From the NCBI RefSeq assembly GCF_000949475.1, contig NZ_JRHC01000004.1, forward strand, positions 1 through 64,000: DNA of 64,000 nt, in the 5' to 3' direction. Below the pieces are notes generated by a model that did no database searches, had not been told where the DNA came from, and was given only the letters and a program-made list of their open reading frames with translations. The stretch comes from Draconibacterium sediminis. GTDB lineage: Bacteria > Bacteroidota > Bacteroidia > Bacteroidales > Prolixibacteraceae. Positions 5,853-48,961 of the stretch are shown in pieces (positions within the stretch are counted from its first letter, which is position 1; every line of letters starts with the position of its first letter). The position numbers and the translations under genes are program-made.

Positions 5853-7085
5853 TCATTTCAGCGCCGCTTCAATATCGGCAATAATATCGTCTACATTCTC
5901 AATCCCCACCGAAAGGCGCATCATGCGGTCGTTAATGCGGGCTGCAATACGTTCTTCTTCGGTAAACTCAGCGTAAATTGTTGAGTGCGGGTGAATGATC
6001 AGCGATTTATTATCATTCAGGTTAGTGGCCCTTCGAATGATTTGTAGCTTGTTCATAAATGTGTAGCAGGCAGCTTTCGATTCCAGCTCAAAACTCATAA
6101 TGGTGCCCGGAATTCCGTTAAAATATTTTTGTGCCAGCGGGTAGCGTTCATCGGTTTCCAGTCCCGGGTAACTTACCTTTTTAATCCGGGGATGTGCTTT
6201 CATAAATTCGCCCAAAGCCAGGCAATTTTGGTAACACTTTTCTACCCGAAGCTCCAGGATGTCGAGCCCCTGAATTTGAAAGCGCGCCGTCTGAGGAGCC
6301 ATGCTTCCGCCCGTATTTCGGTAAACGTTCTTTCTTACTTTAATAAGAAAGGCATTGTCCTTAAATTTTTCAGTGTATGAAGCCGTATTAGGGTTCCGGT
6401 TCCAGTCGAAATTACCGTGATCCACAATGGCACCACCAAACGAAGTGGCCCCTCCCGAGATGTATTTTGTGGTCGACATCACCTCGATATTCACACCAAA
6501 CTTCCCGCCGCTAAAAACATTGGGGGGAGTAATCGTGCTGTCGGCAACTAAAACAAGGTTGTGTTTTTTGGCCACACGCGACAGCATTTCAATATCGGCA
6601 ATATCCAGTTGTGGATTAGTTACCGTTTCAAAATAGATGGCGCGGGTATTTTTATCAATGAGTTTTTCAATTTCTTCTGCCGAACTTAAATCGCTAAAAC
6701 GTGTTTCCAACCCGAATTCAGAAAGTGTATTCTGAAGCAAAGCAAAACTGTGCCCAAACAAACGATTTCCGGAAATAATATTGTCGCCCGTTTTGGTAAG
6801 CGCCATAATGGTATTTGTAATGGCTGCCATTCCCGAACTTACCGCAATTACACCACTGCTTTGTGTTAGCGCCTTTAGTTTTAGCTCGAAATACTCCACC
6901 GTAGGACTTGCTGTTCGCGAGTATACGTGGGCAATGTACTCGCCTCTGAAATTGGCTTCGATCTGTTCGGCCGAATCAAATTCGTAAGCCACCGACTCGT
7001 ATAATGGCATTTGCAGTGCCTTGTGTGGATCGTGTTTGGCGTAAGGTACATTTAATGCTGTGGTAGTAAATCCGGTTTTCTTCAT
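5853..7085 (-). CDS. PLP-dependent O-acyl-homoserine sulfhydrylase / methionine gamma-lyase family enzyme
   Basis: This 410-residue protein belongs to the Cys/Met metabolism PLP family (fold type I). The Schiff-base lysine is K207 in the motif STTKYISGG; an Asp (VADST motif) and ETVTNP also fit the family. Members use O-acetyl- or O-succinyl-homoserine plus sulfide to make homocysteine, or cleave methionine or cystathionine. The sequence alone does not decide between MetY/MetZ and a lyase, though the length and the long N-terminal segment favour a sulfhydrylase. It is monocistronic, converges with the adhesin, and is cytoplasmic. If it is a sulfhydrylase it duplicates the homocysteine-forming step of the DUF39 system at 47020-48586. 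Confidence 0.85.
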   Translation of the reverse strand: MKKTGFTTTALNVPYAKHDPHKALQMPLYESVAYEFDSAEQIEANFRGEYIAHVYSRTASPTVEYFELKLKALTQSSGVIAVSSGMAAITNTIMALTKTGDNIISGNRLFGHSFALLQNTLSEFGLETRFSDLSSAEEIEKLIDKNTRAIYFETVTNPQLDIADIEMLSRVAKKHNLVLVADSTITPPNVFSGGKFGVNIEVMSTTKYISGGATSFGGAIVDHGNFDWNRNPNTASYTEKFKDNAFLIKVRKNVYRNTGGSMAPQTARFQIQGLDILELRVEKCYQNCLALGEFMKAHPRIKKVSYPGLETDERYPLAQKYFNGIPGTIMSFELESKAACYTFMNKLQIIRRATNLNDNKSLIIHPHSTIYAEFTEEERIAARINDRMMRLSVGIENVDDIIADIEAALK

Positions 7086-41210: not shown

Positions 41211-41360
41211 GTGGAAATTCAGAATAAAAATTATAATTATTCAGGGAATTAATAGCTATCATCCCCTTCTTTTCCCTTCAAAGGGGAATTCTTACTTAAC
41301 CACTGACGAAGGAAGCCGGAGGACGTTTTAGAAAGACTGTAATTGAGCAATACTTTTTAA

Positions 41361-41400
41361 AAAAGCAGGCTGGAAAAATCAATTTCCAGCCTGCTTTTTT
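41361..41400. terminator. Bidirectional terminator between DUF4837 gene and metF
   Basis: AAAAGCAGGCTGGAAA (41361-41376) and TTTCCAGCCTGCTTTT (41383-41398) are perfect 16-bp inverse complements around a 6-nt loop, with T-runs on both strands. It ends the plus-strand DUF4837 and minus-strand metF transcripts. Confidence 0.9.
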
Positions 41401-41424: not shown

Positions 41425-42378
41425 TTAGAAAGCAGCTTTTACAATTTCACTAACATTATCAGAAATACCATAGGTATAAATGTGTAACGATGGTACATTA
41501 TGCGCAACCAAATCCTTCGATTGGAAAATGGCCCACTCTGTTCCTACACGGCGTGCGTCATCGTTGTTTTTGCACTTTGTCAACTCTTTTGACAACTCCT
41601 GAGGCAAGTCGATGCTAAAGATTTTTGGAAGCACCGTCAACTGATTTTTCAGGTTGATAGGCTTAATACCCGGAATAATCGGAACAGTAATTCCCATTGC
41701 ACGGCATCTGTCCACAAAATCGTAATAAACCTGGTTGTCGAAAAACATTTGGGTTACAATGTAATCGGCTCCTTCGTCTACCTTTTGTTTCAGGTAAGCC
41801 ATGTCTTGCTCCATGTTTGGCGCTTCAAAATGCTTCTCCGGATAACCGGCAACACCAATACAAAAATCAAGTGGTTTATTGTTTTTCAGGTCCGCATCCA
41901 GGTACTTCCCTTCTCCCAGATCTTTAATTTGTTTAACCAATTCGTTGGCATTTGAGTGGCCATTCTCGGTGGGTTGAAACACATGCTGGTTCTTAAGTCC
42001 GTCGCCGCGTAGTGCCAAAACGTTATTAATTCCCAAAAAGTTAAGATCGATAAGTACATGCTCAGTTTCGCTTTTGGTGAAACCGCCACATAAAATATGC
42101 GGAACTACGGGAATGCCGTATTTGTGCTGAATATCGGCAGCAATAGCAACTGTTCCCGGGCGTTTGCGTACTGTTTGTTTCACAATGCTTCCATCGGCGA
42201 GTTCTTTAAATTCAATCTCGTCGCGGTGGGTAGTAATGTTAATGTATTTCGGATCGAACTCGGTTAAGCTTTCAATCGTTTTATGCAGGCGCGAAACATC
42301 GTTGCCCTTTAATGGCGGCAACAGTTCAAAAGAAAAAACGGTTTTCTTTGCCTGATTTATGGTGTCTATAACTTTCAT
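41425..42378 (-). CDS. metF: Methylenetetrahydrofolate reductase
   Basis: This 317-residue FAD enzyme reduces 5,10-methylene-THF to 5-methyl-THF, the methyl donor for MetH. Family features are the N-terminal FSFELLPPLKGND (catalytic Glu), FDPKYINITTHRDE, PHILCGGFTKSE, LALRGDG and DYIVTQMFFDN. It lies 111 bp downstream of metH on the same strand with its own promoter-like box, so it may be transcribed both with the methionine operon and alone. A bidirectional terminator follows. Cytoplasmic. Confidence 0.96.
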   Translation of the reverse strand: MKVIDTINQAKKTVFSFELLPPLKGNDVSRLHKTIESLTEFDPKYINITTHRDEIEFKELADGSIVKQTVRKRPGTVAIAADIQHKYGIPVVPHILCGGFTKSETEHVLIDLNFLGINNVLALRGDGLKNQHVFQPTENGHSNANELVKQIKDLGEGKYLDADLKNNKPLDFCIGVAGYPEKHFEAPNMEQDMAYLKQKVDEGADYIVTQMFFDNQVYYDFVDRCRAMGITVPIIPGIKPINLKNQLTVLPKIFSIDLPQELSKELTKCKNNDDARRVGTEWAIFQSKDLVAHNVPSLHIYTYGISDNVSEIVKAAF

Positions 42379-42403
42379 GCGATTTTAGTCTGTTTTGCTG
42401 ATG

Positions 42404-42411
42404 CAAATTTA
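42404..42411 (-). promoter_or_regulatory. Promoter -7 box upstream of metF
   Basis: Minus strand TAAATTTG (plus CAAATTTA), an exact TAnnTTTG match 25 bp before the metF ATG. No good -33 partner at the usual distance. Confidence 0.45.
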
Positions 42412-42489
42412 ACAATTTCGTACCTGATCGTCTGAATAAACTTCAAATTGAAAAATAAATGACAGTTTTTTAAAATGAATCGGACGCTG

Positions 42490-45400
42490 TTATTTATAAT
42501 TCAGGTTTGTTGGCAAGAACTTCTCAACAAATTCTACCGATACATTTTTACGTTTTGCATAATCCTCAACCTGGTCTTTTCCCACTTTTTCGAGACTGAA
42601 ATAGCGCGATTCAGGATGCACGAAGTACTGTCCAGAAACCGATGCATTCGGATACATTGCAAAATGCTCGGTAAGCGAAATGCCAATCTTCTCAGCATCT
42701 AACAGTTGAAACAGATTCTCTTTTTCAGCGTGTTCCGGACAAGCCGGGTAACCCAAAGCCGGACGAATTCCCTGGTATTTTATTTTCAGGATTTCGTCGA
42801 GCGACAGTTTTTCGTCAGGTGCATAACCCCAGTAATTCTTGCGAATTTCGAGGTGAAGCAGTTCTGCAAAAGCTTCACTCAGGCGGTCGGCCAGGGCTTC
42901 TACCATGATGGCTTTATAATCGTTGTGCTCTTCGCGGAATTGTTTGGTCCATTTCTCGATACCAATACCTGCTGTAGTGGCAAAACCCCCGCAATAATCC
43001 ACTTTCCCCGATTCTTTTGACGCAACAAAATCGGCCAAACAGAAGTTCGCTACGCCTTCTTTTTTCTTCTCCTGCTGACGAAGATGATAGAAACGTCCGA
43101 TCTCTTTCTCGCACGTTTCATCTTCGTATAGAACGACGTCGTCGCCATCCGATTGTGCCGGCCAGATTCCAAAAGCAGCATTTGCCTGAAGCATCTTTTT
43201 CTCTATAATTTCATCCAGGAATTCATTTCCTTCTTTGAAAAGTTTCTTAGCCTCTTCGCCCTGTTTTTCATCGGCCAGAATTTGCGGGTAATGTCCCTTT
43301 AATCCCCAGGTGATAAAAAAGAATGTCCAATCGATGTAATTCCGCAGTTCTTCCAGCGGGAAATCGATCAAGTGTTTTACCCCGGTAAAATTCGGTTTGT
43401 AAATTGGAGTATTGTTCCAATCGATCGGGAATTTATTCTCGCGTGCTTTTTCAAGGCTTAAGTATTCTTTTGTTTTTCGTTTTCCCTGGAATTCGCGAAT
43501 CTGAGCGTACTCAGAATCCAGATTCTGATGGAATTTTTCGTTCTTGGAAATCAGGTGGGAAACCACATTAACGGCCAGTGATGCATCTTTTACGTGAACA
43601 ACCGGTGCCGAATATTCAGGTGCAATTTTAACGGCCGTATGAATTTTTGACGTGGTTGCACCGCCGATCATCACCGGGATATTCATTTTGCGGCGTTCCA
43701 TTTCTTTGGCAATCTCCACCATAATTTCCAGCGATGGAGTGATTAATCCGCTCAGCCCGATTACATCCACTTCGTTTTTAATGGCTTCCTCAAGGATTTT
43801 CTCGGTTGGAACCATAACGCCCAAATCGATGATTTCGTAGTTATTACAGGCCAGTACCACACCAACTATATTTTTACCAATGTCGTGAACATCGCCTTTT
43901 ACGGTGGCCATCAGCACCTTTTTCTGCGACGTGCTGTTTTTGAATTTCGCTTTATCCGCTTCAATAAACGGCAGCAAATAAGCCACAGCTTTTTTCATCA
44001 CCCTTGCGGATTTGATCACCTGTGGCAGGAACATCTTTCCTGAGCCAAATAACTCACCAACGATGTTCATTCCATCCATTAACGGACCTTCGATAATGTC
44101 CAATGCAGGCGAATATTTCTGAACGGCTTCGGCCATATCTTCGTCAACAAATTCGGGCAATCCTTTTACCAGCGAGTGAGCAATTCGTTTCTCAAGCGGC
44201 AGTTCACGCCATTCGTCTTTTCTTTCTTCTTTTTTCGAAGTCGACTTCAGGCTTTCGGCAAATTCAAGCAATCTTTCCGTTGCATCATCCGGCCTGCGAT
44301 TTAATACGAGGTCTTCAATCCTTTCCAGAAAATCTTTTGGAATTTCATCGTAAATCTGCAACATTCCCGGGTTTACAATTCCCATGTCGAGACCGGCCTT
44401 TATCGCGTGAAACAGGAACACCGAGTGCATGGCTTCGCGCACCACATTGTTTCCGCGGAAAGCAAACGAAACATTACTTACACCGGCACTTACTTTTGCC
44501 AGCGGCAGATTTTCTTTTATCCATTTCACCGATTCGATGAATGAAACGGCGTAATTGTTATGCTCTTCAATTCCGGTACCGATTGTCAGCACGTTCGGAT
44601 CGAAAATTATATCCTGGGCAGGCAGTCCAACTTTTTCGGTAAGAATTTTATAAGCACGGCTGCATATTTCTTTGCGGCGTTCAGTGTTGTCGGCCTGGCC
44701 TTTTTCGTCGAATGCCATAACGATAACAGCAGCACCGTAACGTTTAATTTTTTGTGCCTGCTCGATAAAAACTTCTTCGCCCTCTTTTAAGCTGATGGAG
44801 TTTACAATGGCTTTCCCCTGCAAACATTTTAACCCTGCTTCAATCACATGCCACTTCGACGAGTCGATCATGATCGGTAACCTGGCAATATCGGGTTCTG
44901 CCATAATCAGGTTTAGGAAAGTAGTCATTTCCTTTTCAGCGTCCAACATGGCATCGTCCATGTTTACGTCGATAACCTGGGCGCCATTTTCAACCTGGTG
45001 ACGCGCAATGGTAAGCGCTTCCTCGTATTTTTCTTCACTGATCAGTCGCGCAAATTTACGCGATCCGGCAACGTTACAACGTTCTCCAATATTCAGGAAG
45101 TTGGTGTTTTCGGTGATGGTTACCGGCTCCAGTCCACTCAGCTTTGTGTAAGTGGTAGCTTCGGCACGATTGTGCGGATTTGCTTTGGCAGCCATATCGG
45201 CAAATGCCTTAATGTGAGCAGGCGTTGTACCGCAGCAACCACCAATAATATTTACATAGTTATTATCGAGATACTGTTTGATGTGGCCGGCCATAATTTC
45301 CGGAGTTTCGTCGTACTCGCCAAACTGGTTTGGTAATCCTGCGTTTGGGTGTGCACTAATATGAAATGGTGCTTTCCCGGCCAGTTCTTTAATGTACGGC

Positions 45401-46161
45401 TGAAGATCGGTAGCTCCCAACGAGCAGTTCAATCCGATACTTAACAAATCGACGTGCGAAACCGAGTTCAGGAAAGCCTCCAGTGTTTGACCGGAAAGTG
45501 TACGGCCACTGGCATCGGTAATGGTTCCCGAAACCATTAGAGGAATATTTATACCTCTTTCGTCAAGAACTTCTTCAATGGCAAAAATGGCTGCTTTGCT
45601 GTTCAGTGTATCAAAAATTGTTTCGATCAGTAAGAGGTCAGCGCCGCCATCGAGCAACGCTTCCACCTGTTCGCGATACGCTTGTTTCAACTCGTCGAAT
45701 GAGATGGCGCGGTATCCGGGATCATTTACATCGGGCGAAAGTGATAGTGTTTTGTTTGTAGGACCTACTGATCCTGCAACGTAACGTGGTTTATCCGGAT
45801 TGGCCTTGGTGAATTTATCGGTCAGTTCTTTGGCAATCTCAGCCGAAGCCTTATTCATTTTATAGACATACTCTTCAGTATAGTAATCGGCCTGCGAAAT
45901 GCTGGTTGCATTAAATGTGTTGGTGCAGATTATATCGGCACCTGCTTCCAGATAAGCCTCATGGATTTCCGAAATAACATCAGGGCGAGTCAGCGACAGC
46001 ATGTCGTTGTTCCCTTTCATATCACTGGGGTGATCTATCAACAATTCGCCCCTGTAATCGGCCTCGTCCAATTTATATTCCTGAATCAGAGATCCCATTG
46101 CTCCATCCAATACCAATACTCTCTTTTTGAGTTCTTCCCGTATGTCTCTTTTTGTTGTCAT
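42490..46161 (-). CDS. metH: Cobalamin-dependent methionine synthase
   Basis: This 1,223-residue enzyme transfers the methyl group of 5-methyl-THF to homocysteine. All four modules are present: homocysteine domain (about 1-330, zinc Cys in IGLNCSLG and [10 protein letters not shown]), pterin domain (about 345-620, [15 protein letters not shown]), cobalamin domain (about 650-900, [11 protein letters not shown] with the His axial ligand) and the SAM-dependent activation domain (about 910-1223, [12 protein letters not shown]). It thus needs B12 and SAM. It is the fourth gene of a minus-strand run DUF39, NIL-ferredoxin, UPF0280, metH, metF; the 69-bp gap upstream holds a piece of a dispersed repeat but no terminator. 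Confidence 0.97.
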
Positions 46162-46186
46162 CTATCCTAACTCTTAACACAAAAAC

Positions 46187-46230
46187 CCTAAGTATAAAAG
46201 AATTCTTAGTGCCTTTGTGGCTTTGTGTTT
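46187..46230. repeat. Fragment of dispersed CTTTGTG-type repeat
   Basis: The stretch with TTCTTAGTGCCTTTGTGG and CTTTGTGTTT at about 46200-46231 resembles the two direct repeats at 5531-5586 and 5797-5850 (TTCTTAGTGTCTTTGAG). It fills the gap between UPF0280 and metH. Confidence 0.4.
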
Positions 46231-46983
46231 CTACTTCAATATTCGAATTTCGTTGTCTCCTTTAATTCCGATCTTGTCTTCGCAAATAATGAGCAACGAT
46301 TGTATCTCGTTAAAATTTTCTGCCTGTTTAATCACTTTCTCAACGTGGTCAGGTGTTTTAACCTTATTTCCCAGGGCCGTTGCCAGCGCATCTGCCATTA
46401 GAATATCTTCACAAACCACCACAACGGCATCCGCTTTTCCATAACTTAGCGAGGGACCAACTGTTCCAGCCGAAGTACAAATACCAAAGGTACTACTCCC
46501 TGCTGGAATTACCAGCCCGATACGCTCGGATAGAATGGATTCGCCTGCAAAAACAGATAAAATCAATTCATCCTGTAAAAGCAAAAAGATGTCGCCGCCG
46601 TTTTCAACTAACAGTTCCTTCACCGAAAAGTTTTTACAAATTTCTTCTCCAATTTCGCGGGCAAACAAACCTGCCACTGCCGACATCGGGCCAATTCCCG
46701 CTTTTTCGGCAGCCAGCGCCATTTCTTTTGCTTCTTCAGGAGCAAAGTCTGACGGCTGAAAAGGTTTCAGGCTTTTCCTGAAAAACGGTTCTTTTTCGAT
46801 ATAGTCATCGAAAGTTTGACGCAGCGATTTCGCTTTTTCCAAAGCCACTTCCTGCATCTGGTCTTGGTAAGAGGCCGGATCGACACCGATCCAAAGATCG
46901 GTTTCCAGGTGTTTTACTTCAAAACCTGTAAAACGTTCGGTGTTAAACTGGCTGCGGTATGTACGTTCTTCAAAAATATTCAT
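46231..46983 (-). CDS. UPF0280 family protein (ApbE-like), linked to homocysteine synthesis
   Basis: This 250-residue protein belongs to UPF0280 (COG2122), related to the ApbE fold, with GIGPMSAVAGLFAREIGE, LLVENGGDIFL and GTVGPSLSYGKADAVVVV. In Methanosarcina this family, with DUF39 and NIL-ferredoxin proteins, has been linked genetically to homocysteine formation from aspartate semialdehyde; its exact reaction is unknown. Here it sits directly after those two genes and before metH, 36 bp past the NIL-ferredoxin stop, repeating that association in a bacterium. No signal peptide; cytoplasmic. Confidence 0.88.
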   Translation of the reverse strand: MNIFEERTYRSQFNTERFTGFEVKHLETDLWIGVDPASYQDQMQEVALEKAKSLRQTFDDYIEKEPFFRKSLKPFQPSDFAPEEAKEMALAAEKAGIGPMSAVAGLFAREIGEEICKNFSVKELLVENGGDIFLLLQDELILSVFAGESILSERIGLVIPAGSSTFGICTSAGTVGPSLSYGKADAVVVVCEDILMADALATALGNKVKTPDHVEKVIKQAENFNEIQSLLIICEDKIGIKGDNEIRILK

Positions 46984-47019
46984 CGTTTAAAAATCGTGAT
47001 TTTGCGAAAATGCATCTTT

Positions 47020-47430
47020 CTATCTAAAATCAATTTCGAACAAGTTTAGCGGGCAAGCCGGAATACAAAGTTCGCAAACTACACATTTGCTTTTGTCGAA
47101 TTCCAGTTCCCACGACTGCTTGTCCATGTTCAATGCACCGGCAAAACATACGGCGGTACAGTTTCCGCAGTCGATACATTTTTCTTCTTTCCAGCGAATA
47201 CGTTTGTCGAGCGATTCGCAGGTGATTTTATGGCTTTTAATGTACTCAACGCCTTTTTCAATGTTTTCTTTTTTGCCTTGCAACTCAAGCAACAGACTGC
47301 CGCGTTTCCCGGGGTATACCTCTGCTTTCAATATATTTATCCGGATATCGTATTCCTTCACCAGGTGGTAAGTAAACGCTTTGTCGCCGCTTTGCGGAGG
47401 GAAATTCAGTATGTATCTTTTTTTAATCAT
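47020..47430 (-). CDS. NIL domain 4Fe-4S ferredoxin, iron-sulfur partner of the DUF39 sulfurtransferase
   Basis: This 136-residue protein has an N-terminal NIL domain (about 3-75, substrate or thioamino-acid binding fold) and two ferredoxin motifs, CIDCGNCTAVC and CVVCELCIPACP, predicted to hold two 4Fe-4S clusters. In methanogens the equivalent subunit supplies electrons to DUF39 to release persulfide sulfur as homocysteine thiol. The ATG at 47430 overlaps the DUF39 stop by 8 bp, so the two are translationally coupled; a TTG at 47436 would add two residues. Oxygen-sensitive clusters fit an anaerobic life style. Confidence 0.92.
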   Translation of the reverse strand: MIKKRYILNFPPQSGDKAFTYHLVKEYDIRINILKAEVYPGKRGSLLLELQGKKENIEKGVEYIKSHKITCESLDKRIRWKEEKCIDCGNCTAVCFAGALNMDKQSWELEFDKSKCVVCELCIPACPLNLFEIDFR

Positions 47431-48586
47431 TGTCAACCTCCGTTTCTTTTAATCCGTTTAACGATGTATTTGACGCGAACATGTGTACGGGTTTGCTTAC
47501 TTCGAACTCTCCGTTTTGTAACCATTTCTTCAGTTCATCAGCAATTTTGCGCGCTTTTTTTAAGCTGGCAACCGGCGCGGTTCTTATCTTTTTACCTTTC
47601 ACTTTTATGGTTCCCGACTGCAATTCCTCGTAGGTAACCTGCCCAAGTTTGGGCGTTCCAACCGTGCCGTAATCAAGTACCGAAGTTTCAATCTGGCTGT
47701 TGTTAATCGATACGCGTTTGGCAATATCAACATTCAACACCGGGATAGGAATTCCAATTCCCACAAACATGCTAACACCGTATTTTTCGTATGATGCAGC
47801 CTGAATATACTCGGGCGACATTTCTTTCAGGTTGCCCATTACTGCAATGGTAGCGCCATTGGTAACCGGAACTCCCAGCTCGTTTTTCGGTTTTGTGGTG
47901 TGAAATTGTGTTCCCGGCCAAACCACAAATCCTTGTGTACCTCCTAAAAATATGCGTGTTCCCAGCCCTATGGTCTTAAACTCCGGATCGTTCAGCAGGG
48001 GGCTCAATTCACCTGAAGTGGAGTAGGTGGCATTGCGCAAATTCGGAAGCAAACTGCCCATGTAGGTATATTTTATGGTGGAAGTGGTATTTACCGCCAC
48101 ATTGTAGTTCTGATAAGCATTCCGCGGATTGAACAACGTAAATTCATTGATCGTGTTAATGTTGATTTTGGTTTTTATATGCTTTCGCGGATAACAATCG
48201 GTGCCTTTTGCCCAGGCCTCCAAAACCACATCTTTTCCTTCCAGCAGATCCTGAATAACGTGTGCACCCCCGTACTCCGGATTGTCAGGGTTACAGGCAG
48301 TGGCGCCAATGTATGAATCAACCGCAGCCAGACCTTCGTAGCATGGAACGCCATTCAGTCGGATTTTTTCCATTCGGATTGGCGGATTCGCGTGACCGAA
48401 ATTTATAATTGCCCCCGATGAACACATGGCGCCAAAGGTTGCAGTGGTTACTACATCAACTTTCTCAACTATTTCCTCCGGCGTTAACTCTTTCGCCATT
48501 TGTGCAACTTCTTCGGCGGTTAAAACAACTGCTTTTCCGGCCTTCAGTTTTTGGTTAATTTCTTCGTAAGTTTTTGTTGTCGACAT
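47423..48586 (-). CDS. DUF39 homocysteine biosynthesis protein (L-aspartate semialdehyde sulfurtransferase type)
   Basis: This 387-residue protein belongs to DUF39 (COG1900). Characterised archaeal members form homocysteine from aspartate semialdehyde with sulfide or persulfide, using two essential cysteines. The matching residues here are Cys55 (FGAMCSSGA) and Cys131 (KGTDCYPRK), very close to the reported positions 54 and 131. No CBS pair is seen at the C-terminus, as in the shorter bacterial forms. It is the first gene of the operon, coupled to the NIL-ferredoxin gene, and lies behind a SAM riboswitch, so it should be switched off when SAM is plentiful. Substrate assignment rests on family knowledge. 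Confidence 0.92.
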   Translation of the reverse strand: MSTTKTYEEINQKLKAGKAVVLTAEEVAQMAKELTPEEIVEKVDVVTTATFGAMCSSGAIINFGHANPPIRMEKIRLNGVPCYEGLAAVDSYIGATACNPDNPEYGGAHVIQDLLEGKDVVLEAWAKGTDCYPRKHIKTKININTINEFTLFNPRNAYQNYNVAVNTTSTIKYTYMGSLLPNLRNATYSTSGELSPLLNDPEFKTIGLGTRIFLGGTQGFVVWPGTQFHTTKPKNELGVPVTNGATIAVMGNLKEMSPEYIQAASYEKYGVSMFVGIGIPIPVLNVDIAKRVSINNSQIETSVLDYGTVGTPKLGQVTYEELQSGTIKVKGKKIRTAPVASLKKARKIADELKKWLQNGEFEVSKPVHMFASNTSLNGLKETEVDND

Positions 48587-48702
48587 ATTTTAAAAAGTCG
48601 GAAGTTGGAAGCCAGGATACCGAAGCATGAATCTTTGAAACCGGCAACTGTTTTCATTTAAAAGTTTGTATTGATATTCTTTACGCTGCTAATTTTATGC
48701 GG

Positions 48703-48780
48703 TTAAAACCGCTGACGCATACACATATTTGCCCCGTGCAGATAGCTTGTAAAAAATAATTTGTAGTGCAGTTTCTTCAT
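48703..48780 (-). CDS. Short leader ORF with Met-Cys-Met, between SAM riboswitch and DUF39 gene
   Basis: An ATG at 48780 opens a 25-codon frame, beginning MKKLHYKLFF and ending GANMCMRQRF, then TAA at 48703-48705. It starts just 3' of the riboswitch and ends 117 bp before the DUF39 ATG. Met-Cys-Met codons (48726-48718) lie directly before a palindrome, GCGGTTTTAACCGC (48712-48699), that covers the stop codon. This is the layout of an attenuation leader peptide sensing sulfur amino acids, but no U-run follows the hairpin. It may also be a chance frame. Confidence 0.45.
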   Translation of the reverse strand: MKKLHYKLFFTSYLHGANMCMRQRF

Positions 48781-48794
48781 CGATTGTGTTTTAA

Positions 48795-48902
48795 TTATAA
48801 TTCCGTTTCCGGCCAGGTATTGGCACCTTTTTGTCCGCCGGTTGCCGAACATGGTTGCCAGAGTTTCACAGAGCCCGATCTCTCCACTCTTCTGTATAAG
48901 CA
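48795..48902 (-). promoter_or_regulatory. SAM-I (S-box) riboswitch
   Basis: Reading the minus strand from 48900: CTTATACAGAAGAGTGGAG, then GATCGGGCTC, GTGAAACTCTGGCAACC, GGCAACC again, and AAGGTGCCAATACC. These are the core conserved blocks of the SAM-I family in order (CTTAT-AGAG-TGGAG, GAAAC-GGCAACC, AAGGTGCCAA). P1 can close between CTTATA (48900-48895) and TATAA (48799-48795), and P4 is CCG-GAAA-CGG. It is 22 nt after the promoter start region and ~208 nt before the DUF39 gene, and should repress the methionine operon when SAM is bound. Confidence 0.92.
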
Positions 48903-48931
48903 AACACCCTTTGAAAGAATATTTGATGCCG

Positions 48932-48961
48932 CAAAGATAGTTGATTTTGTGATTTAACAAA
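48932..48961 (-). promoter_or_regulatory. Promoter of the SAM-riboswitch methionine operon
   Basis: Minus strand TTTG (plus CAAA 48958-48961), 18 bp, then TATCTTTG (plus CAAAGATA 48932-48939): both Bacteroidota elements present. The transcript would start near 48925, just ahead of the riboswitch. Confidence 0.75.

Follow-up and report, generated by a model that had tools for sequence, protein, structure and literature searches.

The first 64,000 nucleotides (nt) of contig NZ_JRHC01000004.1 of Draconibacterium sediminis (Bacteroidales, Prolixibacteraceae; assembly GCF_000949475.1, 5,992,231 bases in 19 contigs, completeness 100, contamination 3.38), called here the window, carry on their minus strand what is, judging by sequence, an operon for homocysteine and methionine. 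It is of the type built on DUF39 (L-aspartate semialdehyde sulfurtransferase), includes metH and metF, and is predicted to be controlled by S-adenosylmethionine (SAM). Between its SAM-I riboswitch and its first gene lies a short open reading frame (ORF), at 48780-48703, with methionine and cysteine codons close to its end; this putative leader peptide gene is absent from the account given in an earlier, sequence-only reading of the same DNA. The Met/Cys leader behind SAM-I is the new part of the present analysis, and the less usual side of the operon's control. Read along the minus strand, the features are as follows:

48932..48961, minus strand, promoter-like match of Bacteroidota type, TTTG-N18-TANNTTTG, 29 nt upstream of the aptamer
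48792..48902, minus strand, predicted SAM-I riboswitch aptamer (Rfam RF00162, 62.1 bits, gathering score 44.4, E 5.2e-12, full model 1-108)
48703..48780, minus strand, putative Met/Cys leader ORF of 25 amino acids (aa), MKKLHYKLFFTSYLHGANMCMRQRF, with its start 11 nt beyond the aptamer; relatives have a leader at this position that also ends rich in Met/Cys
47423..48586, minus strand, DUF39/HcyBio protein (COG1900a-like), 387 aa (PF01837, 493.8 bits, cut-off 26.2)
47020..47430, minus strand, NIL domain and two 4Fe-4S stretches, 136 aa (PF09383 and Fer4 families)
46231..46983, minus strand, COG2122/UPF0280 protein, PRK04334-like (NCBIfam PRK04334.1-3 and structure match 2o34_A)
42490..46161, minus strand, metH, B12-dependent methionine synthase, 1223 aa (NF007024, 2010.7 bits; TIGR02082, 1754.2 bits; both above cut-off)
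41425..42378, minus strand, metF, methylenetetrahydrofolate reductase (TIGR00676, 311 bits, above cut-off)
41359..41400, no strand assigned, symmetric intrinsic terminator of 18 pairs, behind metF

The sequence-only reading had named DUF39, NIL-ferredoxin, UPF0280, metH and metF on one strand, and the Pfam, NCBIfam and structure matches bear these identities out. The COG2122 protein, for which no Pfam family was matched, scores 242.4 bits (E 4.5e-72) with NCBIfam PRK04334.1-3, below the equivalog cut-off of 271, and matches the solved structure 2o34_A with E 2.6e-30. A TIGR03287 score of 136.6 bits, far below the cut-off of 363.95, sets the DUF39 protein apart from coenzyme M synthases (methanogenesis marker 16); the protein is 99% identical to its counterpart in Draconibacterium mangrovi and 95% to that in D. 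orientale, and no CBS domain was found in it by a Pfam scan. The tight spacing described earlier is borne out in part: the ATG of the NIL ORF overlaps the DUF39 stop by 8 nt, and gaps of 36, 69 and 111 nt follow the NIL ORF, COG2122 and metH, respectively. The five-gene order behind SAM-I is common to 4 of the 10 DUF39 genomes in the order sample, this one included. In D. mangrovi (L043 10453-10827), a DUF559 ORF (PF04480, 118.3 bits) is placed between COG2122 and metH, at the position of the 69-nt gap of the window.

The same three families are known from work in other organisms. In Desulfovibrio vulgaris, transposon fitness data have shown that each of DUF39, NIL/ferredoxin and COG2122 is required to make homocysteine (PMC5764234, PLoS Genet 2018). 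Because these 2018 data were already published, the link of UPF0280 to the pathway is not new, and the operon loses the role of strong bacterial evidence for it that had been proposed. In the DUF39 protein of Methanosarcina acetivorans, the C54A mutant is non-functional, C131A retains diminished activity, and a C-terminal CBS domain is linked to SAM control (PMC12068725). Cys55 and Cys131, both of which had been called essential, are indeed invariant in all 10 order DUF39 proteins aligned, but the mutants mean that only one of the two is essential in M. acetivorans, with the equivalence to Cys54 and Cys131 judged by position, from an alignment of these 10 without archaeal rows. Compared with this pathway of D. 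vulgaris and M. acetivorans, the window has the same three families, NIL included, and keeps both cysteines; it differs from M. acetivorans in that no CBS domain was found, a SAM-I riboswitch is present, and metH and metF are part of the operon. The operon agrees with the published pathway and adds no new gene to it.

The riboswitch had been placed at 48795-48902, and the covariance model recovers it there, as a match to RF00162 at 48902-48792. This is the single match in the window at Rfam gathering scores, and the only SAM-I match in a scan of the whole genome (150 of 487 candidates scored). The covariance match identifies the element as a riboswitch, and SAM binding is predicted. The claim of a promoter fared less well: the pattern TTTG-N18-TANNTTTG, which we take to be the Bacteroidota-type promoter consensus, does occur 29 nt before the aptamer, but there are three matches in the window against 2.96 expected from shuffles, so that only the place of this one is notable.

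Leader ORFs behind SAM-I aptamers of the order

In the tail of the window leader, ...HGANMCMRQRF, the last 12 codons include Met twice and Cys once, and the DUF39 start is found 116 nt downstream of the leader stop, across the gap 48702-48587. Leaders of relatives, written here up to the stop codon, read MKKQLYKLFLINYMHGSNMCMCWRY in G176, ...SMYMRCMR in Odoribacter laneus, ...MRMRCMR in two metagenome-assembled genomes (MAGs) of Butyricimonas, and ...MPLMPMCMR in L079. The exact tail HGxNMCM was considered as a phylum-wide motif and rejected, as it was found in 1 of 395 genomes, namely that of D. sediminis; what recurs is the Met/Cys codons and not a fixed word.

The order set consists of 98 SAM-I sites (101 listed, less G198, G677 and G666; at the L234 site the string GGTGC is missing from the stated span), with scans of more than 40 genomes run under stricter filters. 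Counts were compared to 200 Markov shuffles, and an ATG ORF was defined as having 7 codons or more. The distance from the aptamer to the start of the first ATG ORF is 9-17 nt at 71 of the 98 sites; shuffled sequences reach this at 10.75 sites on average and at 23 at most. A short ORF at this place has at least two Met or Cys among its last 12 codons at 49 sites (shuffles: mean 1.27, maximum 5), and at least two Met at 42 sites (mean 0.27, maximum 2). The 49 sites come from 45 of the 86 genomes and, with families as labelled by the scan tool, from 27 of the 47 families; their median distance from aptamer to leader start is 12 nt. The Met codons keep to the reading frame: among the 67 short ORFs that begin between +7 and +18, the final 36 nt hold 124 ATG in 788 in-frame codons, against 5 and 7 in the 721 codons of each of the other two frames. 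Met is 16.9 times, Cys 2.5 times and Arg 2.2 times as frequent in the tails as in the rest of the ORF. Poly-Cys tails (CCCCCCC, CCCFCCC), with mixed TGT and TGC codons, occur at three sites in two genomes (L205 and L225 in G648, L227 in G164), and the leaders at L225 and L227 precede metY. When sites are grouped by main gene, with classes assigned from short motifs and 7 of the 98 left unclassified, leaders with any start up to +45 stand before metY at 25 of 33 sites, aspartokinase/homoserine dehydrogenase at 9 of 13, DUF39 at 6 of 7, metH at 9 of 32, cystathionine-synthase-like genes at 1 of 6, and unclassified genes at 4 of 7.

The plainest account of the locus is that the aptamer alone sets the DUF39 operon and the leader ORF is a by-product. 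The strong SAM-I match speaks for it, as do relatives without a leader in which the gene follows the aptamer directly: in the Draconibacterium MAG L047 (415-533), DUF39 starts 12 nt past the SAM-I aptamer with no leader ORF, and at seven order sites the distance from the aptamer to the start of metH is 11-20 nt. The eroded leader tail of L045 is also in its favour. We nevertheless consider such control by the aptamer alone unlikely, because the position of the leaders and their in-frame Met/Cys tails are far above shuffles and other frames, in 27 of 47 families, and because similar leaders occur without SAM-I before aspartokinase in all three family genomes examined (see below).

The leader might also encode a functional small protein, such as a Met/Cys metal-binding peptide, made at low SAM and not serving as a stalling sensor. 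Metal binding by Met/Cys-rich ends is conceivable, and a precedent for an aptamer followed by a conserved small protein is the glutamine riboswitch/downstream-peptide motif. But leaders of different families seem to have little in common in their N-terminal parts, whereas Met or Cys codons keep returning close to the stop, and poly-Cys takes the place of Met in G648 and G164, as sensing of codons would predict; a small protein is, in our estimate, improbable.

Separate modules and two routes to homocysteine

The aptamer and the leader are also found apart. In the D. sediminis genome, the aspartokinase gene beside metY-metA has a Met-rich leader, MNIDQRNTTSSFAAIRCGAMFMSSMFMSMR, ending in ...GAMFMSSMFMSMR before its stop (C16:243290-243382, minus strand; L267 791-883), and no SAM-I match was found for it. 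Aspartokinase leaders end in ...FFSMRMR in G176 and in ...LSSMRMR in G072 (Pfam AA_kinase and ACT domains), with no SAM-I nearby, so that an aspartokinase leader without nearby SAM-I is present in 3 of 3 genomes examined from the family of the window, D. sediminis included. In G113, DUF39 has a leader ending in ...MDMRMRHRR and no SAM-I match. Among the public Bacteroidota DUF39 loci that lack SAM-I, an upstream Met-rich short ORF was found at 1 of 16, not above shuffles (mean 1.5), and Bacillota DUF39 loci with SAM-I had a Met-rich short ORF in 0 of 9 cases. Going by these arrangements, the aptamer and the leader are separable modules: the putative leader stands alone before aspartokinase, and the predicted aptamer stands alone before metH.

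The sequence-only reading had the DUF39 route replace homoserine acylation. A check for homoserine acyltransferase contradicts this: metA is found at C16:239317-240210 (PF04204, 472 bits; NCBIfam MetA_acetyl, 499.3 bits, above the cut-off of 460.5), and adjoins metY, the O-acetylhomoserine sulfhydrylase gene (TIGR01326, 680.1 bits, above cut-off), and aspartokinase. For MetX, no full-length match was found in the genome, the best one reaching 19.9 bits over 46 of 351 positions; this test is weak, since none of 14 control genomes gave a score up to the cut-off of 500. The genome carries, as far as gene matches tell, the genes of two routes to homocysteine, DUF39 and metA-metY. A second Cys/Met-metabolism pyridoxal-phosphate enzyme is encoded within the window at 5853-7085, minus strand, far from the operon; it is O-acetylhomoserine-sulfhydrylase-like (382.2 bits, cut-off 495.1).

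DUF39 is rare and patchy, with 10 of 247 genomes in the order and 1 of 395 in the phylum-wide sample, the latter being D. sediminis. In a tree of 89 DUF39 proteins, starred support places the Bacteroidota row L024 among Bacillota, the position of L079 and L027 beside Spirochaetota and others is not resolved, and the remaining Bacteroidota fall into two starred groups; this pattern suggests lateral transfer, undated. The operon may be a second route that spread laterally and serves perhaps only in sulfide-rich anoxia, acetylhomoserine being used otherwise, and it may be dispensable for methionine. The rarity of DUF39, the place of L024 among Bacillota, and the retention of metA in 4 of 10 order DUF39 genomes are in line with such a role. 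The other 6 of 10 have no metA match, however, so that DUF39 is probably the main route in those, and in the window both metH and metF are within the operon. We see this status of second route as close to evenly balanced, leaning slightly against it; it is compatible with the two-sensor control considered below.

Of the 10 order genomes with DUF39, 6 have SAM-I immediately upstream of that gene. Among public DUF39 loci (the best 80 of 577 relatives, with SAM-I scored there by our own model R1, built from 8 sites, and not by Rfam), SAM-I is upstream in 21 of 80 (12 Bacteroidota and 9 Bacillota), or in 20 of the 77 with at least 400 nt of upstream sequence. Mapped on the DUF39 tree, the SAM-I label requires 13 changes. 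A Clostridia MAG (L087 2899-3003 and 3165-3267) has two tandem SAM-I aptamers before DUF39. Long DUF39 proteins make up 4 of the 80 rows, all archaeal, with Pfam CBS domains in L111 and L122, the two scanned. In a Mesoaciditogaceae MAG (L082 2141-3481), a DUF39 frame of 446 aa runs into the NIL region, by fusion or frameshift. The idea that the riboswitch and the CBS domain are alternatives was dropped, the long forms being only the four archaeal rows (and L082); it is attractive but confounded with phylogeny, because long DUF39 is nearly all archaeal.

A putative two-sensor control and its precedents

What the sequence establishes is which parts are present, how they are spaced and that they recur across the order. 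We think it probable that two leader-region sensors, first the SAM-I aptamer and then the Met/Cys leader, control the DUF39 operon. When SAM is plentiful, the closed P1 helix would be too near the leader start for a ribosome that initiates without Shine-Dalgarno pairing, the leader would remain untranslated, and the operon would be low. When SAM is scarce, the leader would be translated, and a shortage of charged Met-tRNA or Cys-tRNA would lead to stalling at the tail and to raised expression of DUF39 and the genes behind it.

The first step leans on initiation in the phylum. Bacteroidetes lack Shine-Dalgarno sequences, and translation in Prevotella is strongly cut by structure just upstream of the start; the construct with a hairpin 14 nt upstream was the least efficient, and a hairpin about 20 nt upstream gave no inhibition (PMC3155529). 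The aptamer model, of which P1 is the outermost helix, ends 11 nt before the window leader start. With the aptamer ending 11 nt before the start here, and 12 nt before it in the median of the 49 sites, and given the sensitivity to structure seen in Prevotella, SAM binding should hinder initiation at an ORF placed there, and we hold that SAM probably blocks translation of the leader. The Met/Cys codons at the leader end would in turn cause stalling when Met or Cys is scarce; as to the sign of the effect of stalling on expression, the chances appear even. The link from stalling to DUF39 could be Rho-dependent termination in the gap, as a first guess. The leader-to-gene gaps have a mean C content of 0.19 and a mean G content of 0.16, and a median length of 116 nt.

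Several observations weigh against two-sensor control. Among close relatives, L045 has an eroded leader tail and L047 no leader at all, and the 346-nt leader region of the window does not fold more stably than shuffled sequence (z -0.57). Within the order, 49 of 98 sites lack a Met/Cys leader as defined above; outside the order, such leaders were seen at 1 of 20 and 0 of 30 scored sites, the 30 being the highest-scoring of the phylum scan. Differences at the three codon positions are only mildly coding-like (67, 57 and 92 in 14 non-independent leader pairs), with 42 synonymous and 109 non-synonymous codon changes in the same pairs; the signal being only mild, the case for the leader rests on position, frame and tail content. 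Nor was a familiar output device found in general. An intrinsic attenuator behind the leader was rejected, terminator-like hairpins being present in 4 of 44 leader-to-gene gaps and none in the gap of the window, and sequestration of the gene start by the leader tail was rejected for want of an excess of own pairs (over 41 sites, the mean rank is 0.51, with p 0.70). In that comparison the window has rank 0.54, and 3 of the 41 sites rank under 0.05. The single sites L162, L251 and L239 do fold with the leader tail sequestering the start.

Taken together, tail and gap fold on average more stably than shuffled sequence (mean z -1.63; z is below -2 in 16 of 42), so some structure is present. This raises the question of whether the tail is an RNA element, with stems of the AUGCGC/GCGCAU type at the stop codon, which is read by chance as Met-Arg. 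Beyond the folding excess, several tails end in ATGCGC and can pair with GCGC just past the stop, and the enrichment of Arg in tails is as such an element would have it. The Arg codons of the tails vary, however (CGC, CGT, CGA, CGG), tails without Arg occur (CCCCCCC, MGMH, ASMCM), Met is nearly always in frame, and there is no general own-pair complementarity; we regard an RNA element of this kind as quite unlikely. Control by the aptamer and a translated Met/Cys leader remains our preferred reading.

Amino-acid leader-peptide attenuators, such as the trp, his and poly-Cys leaders, are the nearest known systems on the leader side. The order's leaders share with them a short upstream ORF, codons for the end product near its stop, and biosynthetic genes behind it; they differ in that no general terminator or start-sequestering pair is found, and in that the leader follows directly behind an aptamer. 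As an attenuator, the window leader is predicted to be translated and to stall ribosomes upon amino-acid shortage. On the aptamer side, the match to the full Rfam model above the gathering score is shared with known SAM-I (S-box) riboswitches. What sets the order apart is that 49 of 98 sites have a Met/Cys leader beginning 9-17 nt behind the aptamer, the seven metH starts at 11-20 nt, and the rarity of terminator-like hairpins behind the leaders (4 of 44).

A riboswitch joined to an upstream ORF has been described in Mycobacterium tuberculosis metE/ppe2, where a B12 riboswitch and a translated upstream ORF jointly set downstream expression; there the ppe2 leader is described as riboswitch-controlled and translated, and termination-reinitiation is named (PMC11260477). 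The riboswitch and upstream ORF are shared with the window; the ligand and the phylum differ, termination-reinitiation is named for the mycobacterial case, and leader-tail codons for the end product do not figure in the abstract or outline of that source. In Bacteroidetes, SAM-I has been noted (PMC2258182), a transcriptome map of Bacteroides thetaiotaomicron reports small ORFs resembling leader peptides in long 5' untranslated regions (PMC7366714), the Flavobacterium psychrophilum transcriptome gives hints of leader-peptide attenuation before amino-acid operons (PMC9723704), and leader genes near structural genes have been counted in this phylum among others (PMC4833913). The authors of another study knew of leader-peptide systems shown only in Proteobacteria and Actinobacteria, and their text contains no word beginning with Bacteroid- (PMC2965389). 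No description of a Met/Cys leader behind SAM-I in Bacteroidota was found in titles and the starts of abstracts; subscription journals were outside this search, and an earlier report is possible.

A wider and more tentative proposal, to which we would give somewhat less than an even chance, is an order-wide two-input switch, in which the aptamer, through the proximity of its helix to a start without Shine-Dalgarno pairing, gates a Met/Cys-sensing leader. The metY, aspartokinase, DUF39 and some metH genes would open only when SAM and charged Met-tRNA or Cys-tRNA are both low, with the leader and the aptamer as separable modules; for DUF39, the aptamer would be the RNA-level counterpart of the SAM-linked CBS domain of Archaea.

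The DUF39 pathway and SAM-I were already known, and the operon is a clear bacterial example that brings no new step; the pairing of a predicted leader peptide with SAM-I is the part worth following. The presence of two routes to homocysteine in one genome, one behind SAM-I plus a putative leader and the other behind a leader alone, makes D. sediminis a good place to ask when each is used. If the reading is true, the Met/Cys leader behind SAM-I would help to explain how a riboswitch may act in a phylum without Shine-Dalgarno initiation, and would be a natural two-signal gate for one end product.

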